Below, one piece after another: positions 3,929-63,640 of a stretch of DNA of 64,000 nt. The first letter of the stretch is position 1. Every line of letters starts with the position of its first letter. The notes beneath the pieces are model-generated. The model was not told the origin of the DNA. It did no database searches and worked only from the letters and a program-made list of their open reading frames with translations. A program made the position numbers and the translations under genes. This DNA comes from Periplaneta americana (lineage: Eukaryota; Arthropoda; Insecta; Blattodea; Blattidae), in NCBI RefSeq assembly GCF_040183065.1, contig NC_091131.1, positions 10,758,800 to 10,822,799 on the forward strand. Direction: 5' to 3'.

Positions 3929-4410
3929 GTATGATATGAGTAAGTCTGTGATCATGTTTAAATCTGCTGTTGCATTCAGTACCGTATTTATTGTGAAGGA
4001 TAGGTACTCAACCTGATCAAAATCAATCTTCTTAATGTATCCAGCTGTTTGCTGACAACATAAAGTCCACTATAGTCCACTGTAGTCTATTCAGTTTTTG
4101 TTTTTCACAAGAAATGAGGGGTATTTTGATCGGTGTTCATTATAGATGCCTGTTGCTAGTAGCCAGAGTTGGGGTGTAGTCAATATATACTGCAGGGCAG
4201 TGTCTTCTGCAACTGGTACTGATGATTTTATTAATTGATTAACTAATGGACTTACTCATGTTAATTATGTAAGATTTGTGCGGCTTACAGCTGTTTCAGT
4301 GCTTCACGCACCATCCTCAGAGTCTACTAGATCACAGTGTCATCTCGAATTTCTCTGCCTGTTATGTGGGTGTGTTTGATTGTTGAAAGGTGTTGAAGAG
4401 TGGAGTCAAA

Positions 4411-13674: not shown

Positions 13675-13845
13675 TTACATTGTACAACAGATCTAATACT
13701 ACAACATGGGCAGTACACAAGCTGCAAGTTTATAAGATCTGGCTAGGCTAAGGTGTAGTGATCCATTGTAGTACTATAAATCAGTGAATAACAAGCGAAT
13801 GTTTTCGTAAAAGACGAGTATTTTACTGGACCAAAAATTAGTAGA

Positions 13846-14393
13846 AACGGAGCTTCCGGGCTAAGATGCTGTGGTCTACTGGTGCAGATGTTCCCAGACG
13901 TTTCGTCTACTACTGCGGCAGATATCTTCAGTCGAAGTCTTCTGCTAGTGGTACCTGTAGCAACTGATAACCTGACTGGTTGCCTGTCATTTATAGAGCC
14001 AGGGATTGGCCTTAGTGTTCCATTATTGTGGCGGACTGCAATCGCTGGATTTCGGTTTCCATCTGTCGTACCGTCGCTGCGCACAGGTTTAGTACGAGTC
14101 TGTTTCAGCGAGTGCAGTCCGCCACAACAATGGAACACAACAACCAGTCCAAGGCCACCAAGATCCAACACTATGGAACACTAAGGCCAATCCCCGGCTC
14201 TATAAATAAGGACAAGCAACCAGTCAGGTTATCAGTTGCTACAGGTACCCCTAGCAGAAGACTTCGACCTAAGATAACCACTGAAGATGTCTGCCGCAGT
14301 AGTAGACGAAATGTTTGGGAACATTTGCACCAGTAGACCACGACATCTTAGCGTGGAAGCTCCGTTTGAACTAGACACCGGCCGTGAAAGCCT
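13846..14393. mobile_element. Penelope-like terminal repeats in inverted arrangement
   Basis: The left arm (minus sense) and the right arm (plus sense, to about 14390) carry the same sequence: CCAGTCAGGTTATCAGTTGC, a CTGAAGAT motif, AGACGAAA, and ACATCTGCACCAG or near variants. The same tail recurs at 33170-33400. The centre (about 14010-14190) contains a further inverted pair around CGGACTGCA. Assignment to PLEs rests on repeat style and is inference. Confidence 0.5.
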
Positions 14394-14587
14394 ACATGCT
14401 AAGATAAAAAATTAGTATTTTATCATGGACTAAATTTGTGGTAAAATGGTTTAAATACACATTACCATGGATCCATACAGTATATATGTTTTCAAATCAC
14501 ATATAAGACAGCATTAGTATTTAAAATTGTAATGCTTCATTGTTCTGTATGCACTTTTAACACTTACATAATGGCTGATTAACTTCG

Positions 14588-15708: not shown

Positions 15709-16034
15709 TGCAAATCAAGATTTCAGGTATAACTCCCTGTAAAGTTGATTTGAATAATTTCGAGGGAAAAATTGTTCCGGAGCCGGGTATCGAACCCGGG
15801 ACCTTTGGTTTAACGTACCAACGCTCTACCACTGAGCTACCCGGGAACTCTAACCGACACCGATCCAATTTTTCCCTCTATATCCACAGACCTCAAAGTG
15901 GGCTGACAATCGTCAAGCAACCAACTTCGAGCGCACACTAACTCCGTGTGACTTAAATTGTGGCTTTCTGTTAACGAACAGTGACGTGTATTATGCAAAT
16001 CAAGATTTCAGGTATAACTCCCTGTAAAGTTGAT
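15709..16034. repeat. 41-bp direct repeats around the tRNA-like insert
   Basis: The block 15709-15749 is repeated exactly at 15994-16034. Between them lies the tRNA-like unit. This could be an unusually long target duplication or a local duplication of the host MITE. Confidence 0.75.
15774..15848 (-). tRNA. tRNA-Asn(GTT)-like sequence, probably pseudogene or SINE head
   Basis: The minus strand folds as a cloverleaf: D arm GCTCAGTGGTAGAGC, perfect anticodon stem TTGGT/ACCAA with loop ACGTTAA (anticodon GTT), and perfect T stem CCGGG/CCCGG. The acceptor has one mismatch. Position 33 is C instead of the invariant T, which argues against a working tRNA. It lies inside the MITE at 15342-16265 and is flanked by 41-bp direct repeats. 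Confidence 0.5.
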
Positions 16035-27867: not shown

Positions 27868-30325
27868 ATGACTACAACTACTACCAAGAAAGAAGCAATA
27901 CTTGCTTTTATTGAAACATACCGATCGTTACCTGAACTTTGGAATTTAGAACATCCACACTACAGTAACCGAAGAAAAAAGGCAGCCGCATATGACTCCT
28001 TAATCGAGAAGTTAAAAGTGATTGAGCCTGATGCCTCACGCGAAACTGTAGTGAAAAAAATTAACAACCTTCGCTCAGCGTTCCGGAAGGAGCTCAAAAA
28101 AGTTAATGACTCCAAAAAATCGGGGGCTTCGGGTGATGATGTTTACATCCCTGTTCTTTGGTATTTCAACGAATTGTTGTTCCTGGTCGATCAAGAAATG
28201 CCTGAACCGAGTGTGTCGACGTTGGATGAAGGGGACGAGGACGACGATCCTCACCGCTCAGTAAGTATTCATCAATACACAAATCAGCCAAATACTATCC
28301 ATCTTGATTACACAACTTTTAACACTGTATCACTTCGGAATATGTATGGTAACGATCTGCAACAACTTCTACATAGGACAGACAGACAGATCGTTTCAAA
28401 CATGTTACAAAGAACACATCACAGCCATAACAAAATTACAAAACAGCTCCAAATATGCAGCACACGTCACAAATGCTAACCACACCCACAGAGACATCAA
28501 CACAGACATGGAAATACTACACATCCAACCAAAAAGCCAGAAACTAAACACACTAGAACAATATGAAATATACAGACACACAAAAACACACCCCAACGAA
28601 ATTCTTAACACGCAACTCAACTTCAAAATACACACACTCTTTGACTCTACACTATACCACAGGAACACACCCTCACAGGAAACAGAACAAGTAGCGCCAA
28701 GACCAACAACGACCAGTTTTGAAGATGACCCATAAATAGGTCGAAACGTGTAAACGAGGTACGTTGAAATTTAACACAGGAAAGTCTTACCATACATATT
28801 CCAAATACCGGTACTATCCTACAGATAAATATGAACTTACAGCATGTAGCAATTATGTTAAAATAGGATAGATTAGCTTACGTTATATAGGTGACTCCAA
28901 CAATTGAAAGTATATCTGTCATTTTTACAATGTAAAATACGGTGAGAATGAAAGTTTCACATAGAAATGTCAACCAACTTGTTGATTGAGGTTCATGGCG
29001 TTGAGAAAAAATTCATTTGCTCAAATGTCGTAAAGTAGAATCTATTATACAGAAATTTAAAAGTGTGTTTGAAAATAATTATGGATTTCGCACTATGTGT
29101 AAAGCAGCCAAAGTTTTGGAATGGCAAGGAGACGTTGATGGAATTGAGAGTTAGTGACATTCCTTTGATGAAATATGCAAAATTAACTTCTTGCGACATT
29201 GAACAGTCCTTCTCCCAGTATTGTGCATTGTTTGGAGACAACTAACATCAGTTTGTGCTGGAAAACTTGAAGAAAGTCTCTATTCTTCACTGCAAGAGTC
29301 AGTTATTTGAATCCACCACTGTCTCAACATGATTGGTGAGTGATTTCTTTTTTATAATGCTTAAAATTTTGTAATATTGAAACAAAATATTTTTACAATT
29401 TTTATTCATGTTTTCAATTTTATACATATTTTACATAATTTTACTATATAAAAAAATAAATATTTTCAAGTTTTTAGCACATAAAAATCTGTTTCCACGT
29501 ATAACTATATGAAAATTGTGAGGAAGCTGATATGTTGAGCACATTCTTGTCAAGAAGACCATAAAATATAGTGTTTCTAATCTTGCTGCCATCAGAAATC
29601 CTTCCATTCGTGCCAATATCAGCTAGCAGAATTTCATAATTCGCATCAACAACTGTCAGTAAGATAAGGCTAAACATCTTCTTGTAGTTGTAATACCATG
29701 ACCCAGATCCTTGAGGTTTTTTTTTATTTGGACGTGCTTGCCATCTACGGCACCTAGACAATGTGGAAATTGCCATTTCATGTCAAAATGCTCAGCTATC
29801 TGTTCCCATTGTCCTTCGTCATGTGGAATCTGAAATGAATAATGATGTAATGGAAATTAAAGGAATCTTTAAGATTTACCGGTATTTATTTGTTTACAGA
29901 AATGTCTTAACAAATATAGGTAATTAAAAAAATATAATATTTTATTTATCTTTATATTATTATTTGTAATTGTTTTTTCGACGAAATATTAGGCCCGTCA
30001 TTTTCTTTATTTTCAGGTTAGTGCTATCCACACCAACTCTTTGCTTCCTACATACAGGAAAAAAAGAAAGATAATTCCTAACCCAACCTCAGCACAAGAT
30101 TTCCTTCGTGCAGCTACGAGTTATCTGGAGAAAGAAGATGACGAATTTTTGATAATGGCGAAAGGATATGCGGCTAAATTGAAGAAATTGACAAAGGACC
30201 AGCTTATTTTTGCCGATAGGGTGATAACTGAAGCATTGGTGGATGCACAAATGGGCGTGTTGACCAGGTGGAGCTATGTGGCCAACTCAGCTCATTCGTC
30301 GAATCCGCCCTCAACCCATGAATGA
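27868..30325 (+). CDS. MADF-BESS domain protein, two exons, 233 aa
   Basis: Exon 1 (27868-28260) encodes a MADF DNA-binding domain: AILAFIETYRSLPELWNLEH, then YDSLIEKLKVIEPDA and VVKKINNLRSAFRKELKKV, ending in YIPVLWYFNELLFL. An acidic stretch (DEGDEDDDPH) follows. The donor is TCA|GTAAGT and the acceptor TTTTCAG at 30016. Exon 2 (30017-30325) is in phase. It carries a C-terminal BESS-like segment (DDEFLIMAKGYAAKLKKLTK, QLIFADRVITEALVDAQMG) and a stop. The start is the ATG after GTGACC. MADF proteins are the second gene of some Harbinger elements and are thought to help transposase bind DNA. It may equally be a host MADF-BESS gene caught by the transposon. Both exons are open. Confidence 0.75.
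28300..28800 (+). mobile_element. Penelope-like element fragment with GIY-YIG endonuclease
   Basis: It starts with an inverted piece of its own end (28302-28351), then codes NNFYIGQTDRSFQTCYKEHI and HTHRDINTDMEILHIQP. This is the GIY-YIG endonuclease domain of Penelope-like retroelements. It ends in a tail like the one at 32140-32218. The flanks CCAAATACTATCC (28287-28299) and CCAAATACCGGTACTATCC (from about 28798) suggest a target duplication. It sits in the intron of the MADF gene. The copy is partial and looks broken. Confidence 0.8.
28713..28757 (+). ncRNA. Degenerate hammerhead-like motif in PLE tail
   Basis: The order is stem I GTT/AAC, core TTGAAGA (first C replaced by T), stem II TGACC/GGTCG with loop CATAAATA, GAAA, short stem III, then TA. 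It is likely a weak or dead hammerhead; the core substitution lowers confidence. Confidence 0.4.
29000..29330 (+). mobile_element. hAT transposase C-terminal fragment
   Basis: The frame reads KQPKFWNGKETLMELRVSD and MKYAKLTSCDIEQSFSQYCA. The KYAxLTSCDxExSFS motif is the C-terminal dimerisation region of CGGBP1-like hAT transposases. It likely belongs to the family of the element at 24415. No termini were found. Confidence 0.6.
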
Positions 30326-31555: not shown

Positions 31556-31635
31556 AGATGAAGCGGTGAGCAAACAACTAATATGGCATTGTCGTTTGGG
31601 GTAGTGTTTCTAAATCCGCTGGATTTACTACAGAA

Positions 31636-32218
31636 GAGAATAATAAAATCATTCAAGAAATTAAATTACAACATCGCATACAGAACAAATAACACTCTAC
31701 AAAAACATCTCAACACACAAACAAACAAATACAACCACACAGGCGTATACAAACTCAAATGTAACACGTGCAACAACTTCTACATAGGACAGACAGGCAG
31801 ATCGTTTCAAACACGTTACAAAGAACACATCACAGCCATAACAAAATTACAAAACACCTCCACATATGCAGAACACATCACAAATGCTAACCACACCCAC
31901 AGAGACATCAACACAGACATGGAAATACTACACATCCAACCAAAAAGCCAGAAACTAAAACACTAGAACAATATGAAATATACAGACACTCAAAAACACA
32001 CCCCAACGAAATTCTCAACACACAACTCAACTTCAAAACACACACACACTCTTTGACTCTACACTATACCACACGAACGCACCCTCACAGGAAACAGAAC
32101 AAGAGGCGCCAAGACCAACAACGAAACATGTAAACGAGATACGTTGAAGTTTAACACAGGAAAGTCTTATCATACATATTCCGAAGCGATACAGTGTTAA
32201 AAGTTGTGTAATCAAGAT
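31636..32218 (+). mobile_element. Penelope-like element fragment with GIY-YIG domain
   Basis: It codes LNYNIAYRTNNTLQKHLNTQ, then TGVYKLKCNTCNNFYIGQTG and RSFQTRYKEHI. This is the end of the reverse transcriptase and the GIY-YIG endonuclease of a PLE, the same family as the copy at 28300. The tail at 32120-32218 includes CGAAACATGTAAACG. It is 5'-truncated and looks broken, and it probably replaced the right end of the Harbinger element. Confidence 0.8.
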
Positions 32219-33150: not shown

Positions 33151-33169
33151 TATATATTTACACGAGAAA

Positions 33170-33400
33170 ACATCCTGGGTCTATAAATAAGGACAAGCAA
33201 CCAGTCAGGTTATCAGTTGCTACAGGTACCCCTAGCACGATACTTCGACCTAGGATACCTAACCACTGAAGATGTCTGCCGCAGGAATAGACGAAACGTC
33301 TGGTAACATCTGCACCAGTAGACCATGGCATCTTAGCCCGGAAGCTCTGTTTCAACTAGACACCGGCCGTGAAAGCCTACATGCTAAGATTAAACAATAA
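33170..33400 (+). mobile_element. PLE-type tail repeat
   Basis: It is a close copy of the right arm at 14200-14393 (AGTCAGGTTATCAGTTGCTA, CACTGAAGATGTCTGCCGCA, AGACGAAACGTCTGG). The CTGAAGA, AGAC/GTCT and GAAA order is hammerhead-like, but no stem I is evident. Confidence 0.5.
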
Positions 33401-36877: not shown

Positions 36878-61317
<24,440 letters not shown>

Positions 61318-61565: not shown

Positions 61566-61810
61566 TTGAAGGGTTCAGAGCCATAGTGGGCCAAGCGCCA
61601 TTTATTAAAAACGGAGAAAGCAAGGGTTAAAGTTAAGTGAATACCATAGTTTAATGAAGATTGATATATCATTTAGTTTTAATGTGTGTACTTTATATTA
61701 CTTCCTATATTATGTTTCCATTGAATTATGGTAATAACTTCATTTTAACTCTTGTTTTCTACAGTTCTAGTAAATGGCGCTTGGCCCACTATGGTTCTAA
61801 ATCTTTCAAT
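61566..61810. mobile_element. MITE with long inverted termini
   Basis: The arms TTGAAGGGTTCAGAGCCATA and, inward from the right, TTGAAAGATTTAGAACCATA continue GTGGGCCAAGCGCCATTTA. A related partial copy is at 45070-45259. Confidence 0.75.
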
Positions 61811-61902
61811 TTATGTTGAATCTTTCGTTCACTACTTTTAACACTTGAATATAAATAATTGATTAAATGGCGATCTTACTCGTGTTAATTATGTAAGCAT
61901 GT

Positions 61903-61950
61903 GTGGCTTACAGCTGTTTCGGTGCTAATTGACACCATCCTCAGAGCCTA
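61903..61950 (-). ncRNA. Hammerhead ribozyme motif in PLE repeat (copy 2, best preserved)
   Basis: Minus strand: stem I GGCT/AGCC (perfect), core CTGAGGA, stem II GGTG/CACC with loop TCAATTAG, GAAA, stem III ACAGCTGT, and UA before stem I. All core positions of a minimal type I hammerhead are present. Confidence 0.75.
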
Positions 61951-62311
61951 CTAGATCTCAGCGCTATCTCAACTTCGCTGCCTGTTGTGTGGGTGCGTTC
62001 GTGTGATGAAGAGTTGTGTCAAATAGTGTGTGTGTTCTGAAATTGATCTGTGTATTGAGAATTTGATTAGGGTGTGTTTTAGTGTGTCATATTTCATATT
62101 GGTCTAGTGTGTTGAGTTTTTGGTTTTTGGGTTGTATGTGTAGGATTTCCATGTCTGTATTTATGTTATTGTATGTGTGGTTAGCATTAGTTATGTGTTC
62201 GGCATATGTAGATGTATTGTGTCCTCTGGTTATTGCTTTATGTGTTCTTTGTATCGAGTTTGGAATGATCTGCCTGTCTGTCCAATGTAGAGATAACGCT
62301 GAGATCTAGTA

Positions 62312-62357
62312 GTCTCTGAGGATGGTGTCAAGTAACACCGAAACAGCTGTAAGCCAC
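62312..62357 (+). ncRNA. Hammerhead ribozyme motif in PLE repeat (copy 3)
   Basis: Core CTGAGGA, stem II GGTG...CACC, GAAA, ACAGCTGT, UA. Stem I is GTCT against AGCC, with wobble or mismatch pairing, so it is weaker than copy 2. Confidence 0.65.
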
Positions 62358-62712
62358 ACATGCTTACATAATTAACACGAGTAAGATCGCCATTTAATCA
62401 ATTATTTACTTTCAATTTCATTTCAAATTTTTCACATTTATCTTTAGTTAACAATAGGTTGGAAAATATTACTTTTGCTGGCAATAAATAAAGAATTGGT
62501 ATATGAAAACAATTAAATAAAAATTAAATTGCATTTTAAACTTCCAAAATCTGCATATCTATACTATCAAAGACATAAGAGATGGTTGTCCCCTATCACC
62601 AATATTGTTTAACATTTATGTTAATAAAATTACTGATTAACTTTGTAGCTTCCTTACTGTGTTAATATGAGGAATTTACCTGGCTGACTAGTTTCGAAGT
62701 GATATTCTTCCA

Positions 62713-63527
62713 TGTTGAATCTTTCAACATACCCATGAGCCAACAACACTACAATGAAGAAGTGAACACAATCAAATACATAGCACAAGAAAATGGTTAC
62801 AACCCAAACATAATAGACAACATCATAAGGAACACAAAACAAAAACTCAACAAACACAAAAACACACAAAACACAACACAAACACAAGAACACAAGAAAT
62901 ACATCACACTAACATACGAAAACAAAAACACACACAAGATCGCATCCTCATTCAGAAAACAGAAATACAACATAGCATACAGAACAGAAAACACACTACA
63001 AAGACATCTCAACACACAAACAACACAAACAAATAAATACAACCACACAGGCATATACAAACTCACATGCAATAGTTGCGACAGTTTCTACATTGGACAG
63101 ACAGGCAGATCATTCCAAACTCGATACAAAGAACACATTAAAGCAATAACCAGAGGACACAATACATCTACATATGTCGAACACATAACTAATGCTAACC
63201 ACACATACAATAACATAAATACAGACATGGAAATTCTACACATACAACTCAAAAACTAAAAACTCAACACACTAGAACAATATGAAATATACAGACACAC
63301 TAAAACACATCCTAATCAAATTCTCAACACACAGATCAATTTCAGAACACACACACCATTTGACACACCTCTTCATCACACGAACGCACACACACAACAG
63401 GCAGAGAAGTTGAGATAGCGCCGAGATCCAGAAGGCTCTGAGGATGGTGTCAAGTAGCACCGAAACAGCTGTAAGTCGCACATGCTTACATAATTAACAC
63501 GAGTAAGATCGCCATTTAATCAATTAC
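62713..63527 (+). mobile_element. PLE family B copy nested in family A
   Basis: It codes IKYIAQENGYNPNIIDNIIR, YNIAYRTENTLQRHLNTQ, then NSCDSFYIGQTGRSFQTRYK, the late reverse-transcriptase and GIY-YIG endonuclease regions of a Penelope-like element. The flanks TGATATTCTTCCAT and TGATATTCTCCAT suggest the target duplication. The terminal repeat at 63406-63525 carries a hammerhead motif. It is 5'-truncated. Confidence 0.8.
63433..63480 (+). ncRNA. Hammerhead ribozyme motif in PLE repeat (copy 4)
   Basis: Stem I GGCT/AGTC (one wobble), CTGAGGA, stem II GGTG/CACC with loop TCAAGTAG, GAAA, ACAGCTGT, UA. A complete minimal hammerhead layout. Confidence 0.72.
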
Positions 63528-63640
63528 TGATATTCTCCATTGTCCGAAGCCTAGTTTAATAAAATTATCTCCGAATGGAATGACAAAGAAAAGGAAATAA
63601 TAATACTCCCACAAATTGTGATATTAAATAATATTTTTTT

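Follow-up and report, generated by a model that had tools for sequence, protein, structure and literature searches.

Hammerhead motifs and Penelope-like elements in the window

The window analysed here, a stretch of 64,000 nucleotides of the Periplaneta americana genome (NCBI RefSeq assembly GCF_040183065.1, contig NC_091131.1, positions 10,758,800 to 10,822,799, forward strand), contains hammerhead motifs in Penelope-like elements (PLEs). The motifs are real, occur beyond chance and are of a known kind, the dimer-type PLE hammerheads, to which they add new members. They are very probably minimal type I PLE hammerheads at the 3' end of truncated copies, for which we infer catalysis, use of dimers in the cell and a role in RNA processing. 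An earlier note, made from the sequence alone, had placed four copies at 4281, 61903, 62312 and 63433. All are present in the sequence, those at 4281 and 61903 on the minus strand, with the first C of the core at 4320 (minus), 61944 (minus), 62316 (plus) and 63438 (plus), the positions used below to name the copies. They are listed here together with the surrounding PLE copies and with expectation values (E) from R1, a covariance model of our own:

4280..4326, minus strand: hammerhead motif, subfamily A2; stem I mismatch A.C; no R1 match up to E 10
61845..62305, minus strand: inverted, 5'-truncated PLE copy with the 61903 motif; inverted repeats; frame at 62087-62305
61903..61950, minus strand: hammerhead motif of subfamily A1 with four pairs in stem I; cleavage predicted after GUA; R1 E 0.025; cofold is a double hammerhead
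62287..62415, plus strand: short PLE 3' end with the 62310 motif, facing the 61845..62305 copy head to head (inverted repeat 61845-61973 / 62287-62415, 95%)
62310..62357, plus strand: hammerhead motif, A1; stem I mismatch T.C; R1 E 0.61
62666..63259, plus strand: open frame ending GIYKL..FYIGQTGRSFQTRYKEH, GIY-YIG-like (motif by eye); 3' part of a truncated PLE copy
63432..63479, plus strand: hammerhead motif, A1; one G.U in stem I; R1 E 0.091, with stem III aligned otherwise than proposed

All four copies carry CTGAGGA, stem II, GAAA, ACAGCTGT and UA, in the hammerhead order that the earlier note had recognized; the note had left out one unpaired T that separates A9 from stem II in every copy, and stem I is complete in only two of the four. 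The RNA of each copy reads stem I, CUGAGGA, an extra U, stem II, GAAA, ACAGCUGU, A17 and stem I; in the numbering of the hammerhead consensus, the palindrome opens with A15.1 and closes with U16.1. Stem II pairs GGTGT with RCACC in the A1 copies, and GGTGC with GCACT in the A2 copy. Stem I is fully paired over 4 bp in 61944 (GGCT/AGCC) and has four pairs, including one G.U, in 63438 (GGCT/AGTC); thus, these two pass the strict descriptor defined below. The same two match the type I pattern (CUGANGA and GAAA, stems II and III, UH, and stem I) strictly, and the others match it with one stem I mismatch. The palindrome ACAGCTGT, which is able to pair between two motifs, is present in all four.

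The PLE-type copies are 5'-truncated, inverted and tandem, and share a 3' end that lies beyond the ribozyme: they begin at varied upstream points, and their end mostly falls 87-100 nt downstream of the first core base, which puts the motif about 90 nt ahead of it. The window holds a second head-to-head pair (61847-62088 with 63294-63535). Searches of the genome (3.23 Gb, 91 contigs) gave at least 41 matches to the A1 query (best 40 of 1409 candidates scored) and at least 42 to the A2 query (best 40 of 2311 candidates scored); the true copy numbers are higher, because only part of the candidates was scored. Two longer copies (L063 and L064) contain FDITNLYTNIPI, GLSMGSPISS and RYVDDIL upstream of the motif, as found by eye. 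Together with GIYKL..FYIGQTGRSFQTRYKEH, these stretches presumably represent the reverse transcriptase (RT) and the GIY-YIG endonuclease of a PLE. The best phmmer match of the endonuclease stretch among solved structures was I-TevI, a weak one (E 0.13), and a profile search against solved structures gave no endonuclease match. An AlphaFold model of the endonuclease (mean pLDDT, the predicted local distance difference test, 42) was too poor and went unused. L063 has three tandem motifs, 576 and 574 bases apart, each unit combining a PLE 3' end with a hammerhead, an arrangement resembling that of the retrozymes in PMC7229834; the three clustered motifs of the window are inverted or far apart. 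Just upstream of the PLE cluster, about ten 162-bp units form an array (58934-60645).

Further hammerhead families

Two more families of the same design, absent from the earlier note, are found in the window: B (39538 minus and 40228 plus) and C (33266 plus and 14281 plus). Eight families were counted: A1, A2, A3 (L004), B (40228), C (33266), D (L023), E (L029) and F (L053). The additional features of the window are as follows:

14275..14322, plus strand: family C copy with a hammerhead-like motif; stem I of three pairs; R1 E 0.21
28713..28758, plus strand: decayed hammerhead in an A3-like PLE copy, C3 read as T; R1 E 8.1e-7
33260..33306, plus strand: hammerhead motif, family C, palindrome ACGT; found by descriptor; R1 E 0.002, outside training
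39422..40344, no strand: inverted repeat of two family B ends; 445-nt arms, 98%, separated by a 33-nt spacer; both arms end in a hammerhead
39497-39544, minus strand: hammerhead motif, family B twin; found by descriptor; R1 training member
40222..40269, plus strand: hammerhead motif, family B, palindrome AACGTT; found by descriptor; R1 training member

Further core matches showed no pairing and were not counted as families, namely 9396 (minus) in the window, and L035-1772, L038+201, L051-2972 and L058-2750. At the centre of the family B inverted repeat several Rfam microRNA models match below gathering scores. The family C ends (33160-33400, 14150-14415 and 13800-13960) have a TATAAATA box upstream of the hammerhead, seen by eye. 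Another PLE copy with a GIY-YIG-like stretch lies at 31562-32200; by eye, it has seemingly lost the 5' half of its hammerhead, with GAAACATGTAA left. Elsewhere in the window, two tRNA-model matches (805-876 and 15775-15846) are above gathering score.

Controls against chance

The loose pattern CTGANGA..GAAA matches 14 times in the window, versus a shuffle mean of 3.15 and a largest value of 9, and by itself is weak evidence. The strict descriptor, which demands at least four pairs in stems I and II, a palindrome 4, 6 or 8 bases long and H at position 17, finds four sites in the window (33266 plus, 40228 plus, 63438 plus and 61944 minus), versus one match in total in 1000 dinucleotide shuffles; the loose descriptor (stems of at least three pairs) finds five, versus four in total in 1000 such shuffles. 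An earlier descriptor run had given no matches in 60 shuffles. Over the window and 63 loci (269,032 bases, overlaps counted twice), the true core gives 104 rows with 20 distinct strings, and eight altered core words on the same bases give one match in total. The eight families are a better measure than the 104 rows, because many rows are close copies of one family.

Covariation between and within families

The earlier note had proposed the Rfam hammerhead covariance model as a check. No Rfam hammerhead model matched in the window, in 61800-63550 or in four of the fetched loci, whether the cutoff was the gathering score or an E of 10, in searches lacking a positive control with published PLE hammerheads. 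An Rfam Histone3 match (62299-62344, 17.2 bits with a gathering score of 34) overlies one hammerhead copy and is taken as chance. Because Rfam gave no hammerhead match, R1 was built on six sequences drawn from families B, D, E and A3, with A1, A2, C and F excluded. In its alignment, seven of eight pairs have changes on both sides, 95.8% of cells pair (shuffled mean 69.2) and covariation is 0.867 vs 0.279; in slid versions 20.8-38.9% of cells pair. On the window R1 recovers family C, which it was not trained on, at 33260 (E 0.002). For the search of other loci, 65 of 69 were used (L005, L006, L030 and L061 were excluded as overlapping others), and there most A1 copies score 17 bits (E 0.12). 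When ten representatives of all families were aligned with MAFFT, GAAA was misplaced, and this alignment was excluded from counting. The structural link between the families is clear; the A copies by themselves would be too weak to establish it.

Within family A, variation was compared in 41 A1 and 47 A2 copies, picked as best matches (88 copies, after seven of 95 were dropped with the motif missing or too damaged). The nine core positions change at 0.008 (A1) and 0.007 (A2) per cell; for the loop and the remaining positions the rates are 0.014 and 0.039. N7, which is a free core position in the hammerhead consensus, varies in none of the 41 A1 copies and in seven of the 47 A2 copies. Stem substitutions keep the pair in 12 of 16 cases in A1 and six of 13 in A2, with no case of a change on both sides. 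From A1 to A2 the stem II loop is replaced and the distal pair, T-A (T-G in 7 of 41), becomes C-G, with pairing kept. The structural constraint suggested by the earlier note is not clearly shown inside this family; the covariation that was to be sought across genome copies appears between B, D, E and A3. Within-family variation is weak evidence, and the A2 stems are without clear protection.

Dimer folding and proposed mechanism

Alone, the 61944 sequence has a minimum free energy fold (-11.4 kcal/mol) that is not a hammerhead, the hammerhead fold being at -7.4 kcal/mol. An unconstrained cofold of two such strands is a double hammerhead in which both stems I form and stem III has eight pairs (-30.7 kcal/mol), and is the same at a second length. 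The inter-strand stem III of 8 bp appears in the cofolds of all four A copies. The full dimer model is predicted for intact A1 copies only.

Because a lone stem III has two pairs and a shared one has eight, we infer that the motifs cut as dimers: the palindrome would give a single hammerhead a two-pair stem III, and two copies would share an eight-pair one. The partners may sit in tandem on a single transcript or on two separate ones; cleavage would fall after the A of GUA, and dimer cutting would trim PLE RNA into units.

Evidence on both sides and alternative explanations

Support for the hammerhead assignment comes from the sequence anatomy, the excess over chance, the cross-family covariation and the predicted dimer fold of 61944, and also from the recovery of family C by R1, the variation of the free position N7 among A2 copies, and the PLE setting. 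Several results weigh against it, beginning with the Rfam negative above. The R1 alignment rows were picked among core matches after pairing was seen, and because of this the covariation is support rather than a blind test. R1 is weak on three of the noted copies (E 0.025, 0.091 and 0.61) and misses the 4281 copy up to E 10, and it has other window matches, at E 0.19-0.58, that are without further support. The third stem I pair is mismatched in 62316 (T.C) and 4320 (A.C). Folding of the four copies, which the earlier note had also proposed, predicts the double hammerhead for 61944, and for 63438 at one of two lengths; the cofolds of 62316 and 4320 have the shared stem III and stem II and lack stem I. 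Cofolds of families B and C give no double hammerhead. Stem substitutions in family A break the pair in four of 16 cases (A1) and seven of 13 (A2). The stretches taken for RT and GIY-YIG endonuclease have no Pfam match. The proposal of hammerheads in Penelope-like repeats is supported by anatomy, by the shuffle control and by covariation between families, without Rfam and with a weak R1 signal on three of the four copies.

Rfam silence and the frequent matches of the core pattern alone are what would be expected if the motifs were a chance match, or another hairpin resembling a hammerhead, but the shuffle and altered-core controls and the covariation across families leave this explanation hardly credible. 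The motifs could instead descend from PLE hammerheads in a family that no longer cleaves, their conservation reflecting recent shared copies. This is possible, if doubtful: stem I is mismatched in two of the four copies, substitutions inside the family often break the stems, and most copies are truncated, yet intact A1 and A2 strings are common among the fetched copies (45 and 31 rows, overlaps included), and A1 and A2 differ in the stem II loop and distal pair and both still pair. Many individual copies, truncated or mismatched, are probably dead.

The remaining alternative concerns the extra nucleotide. In all 20 distinct descriptor strings exactly one base, 18 times T and twice C, separates A9 from stem II, although zero, one or two were allowed; the consensus hammerhead has none. 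Where the base is T, it can form an ATG with A9 before it and the opening base of stem II after it, as in Anolis Poseidon, where the open reading frame (ORF) starts at stem II (PMC11167929). The stretch might therefore be kept as the start of the PLE frame, with the ribozyme secondary, and an AUG over the core would explain the T. Two family C copies (33266 and 14281) do read 42 codons from the core ATG, the third C copy having ATA; against this, the frame stops after 17 codons in A1, nine in A2, 11 in B, two in D and 12 in E, in copies without full-length 5' ends, and the position is ATA in A3 and ACG in F. A coding role would fail for most families here unless 5' copies differ, and the start-codon explanation is improbable. 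The eight families keep the extra nucleotide with or without a usable ATG, though their stems, loops and palindromes share no sequence. One speculative and unlikely reading is that PLE hammerheads form a structural subclass, defined by exactly one unpaired nucleotide between A9 and stem II, in which this nucleotide contributes to the function of the dimeric ribozyme; this would explain the silence of Rfam.

Relation to known hammerheads

Dimeric action and palindromic pairing, which the earlier note had put forward as possibly new, are already in print, and the claim of novelty fails for this reason. The title of Lunse, Weinberg and Breaker (2017) states that PLE hammerheads cleave RNA as dimers; according to PMC6466107, such cleavage requires that the loop of stem III be palindromic and that the motifs stand in tandem; a table of palindromic stem III sequences able to pair between two motifs appeared in 2011 (PMC3088659); and PMC7761336 and PMC6155905 indicate that minimal type I hammerheads in PLE pseudo-LTRs (long terminal repeats) may cleave as dimers. 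By their description, the dimeric variants of 2017 share with the present motifs the PLE setting, a very short stem III and a palindromic stem III loop; dimer cleavage, here proposed, and tandem arrangement, here seen in L063, are probable further parallels. The minimal type I hammerheads of Cervera and De la Pena (2014), as PMC7761336 presents them, likewise lie in PLE terminal repeats and have little or no stem III and no clear loop-loop contact, the host and families being the only known difference. The double hammerheads of the newt and of avocado sunblotch viroid (PMC6155905, PMC6466107) also have a weak stem III rescued by pairing of motifs, but reside in satellite DNA or a viroid instead of a PLE.

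Anolis Poseidon (PMC11167929) resembles the present case in having the core beside an ATG at the base of stem II and genomic copies whose ends lie beyond the ribozyme; in that element the ORF begins at this ATG, whereas here only family C reads far. The Anolis hammerhead cleaved only with protein added, and insertion in vitro had no need of cleavage (PMC11167929); by analogy, cleavage here may also be protein-dependent and dispensable for insertion. An extra nucleotide was not described for PLE hammerheads in the parts of the literature searched, whose coverage was without Lunse 2017 and Cervera 2014, and no novelty is claimed for it. Core insertions that weaken other hammerheads are known (PMC3088659), and PMC11014351 mentions a viroid case.

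These motifs add several families of a known kind of ribozyme in one genome. The Rfam models miss these families, and therefore counts of ribozymes in animal genomes that are made with Rfam only are too low. The constant extra nucleotide bears on how these weak hammerheads may work, whether by tuned activity, by dependence on protein, or by a start codon laid over the core.
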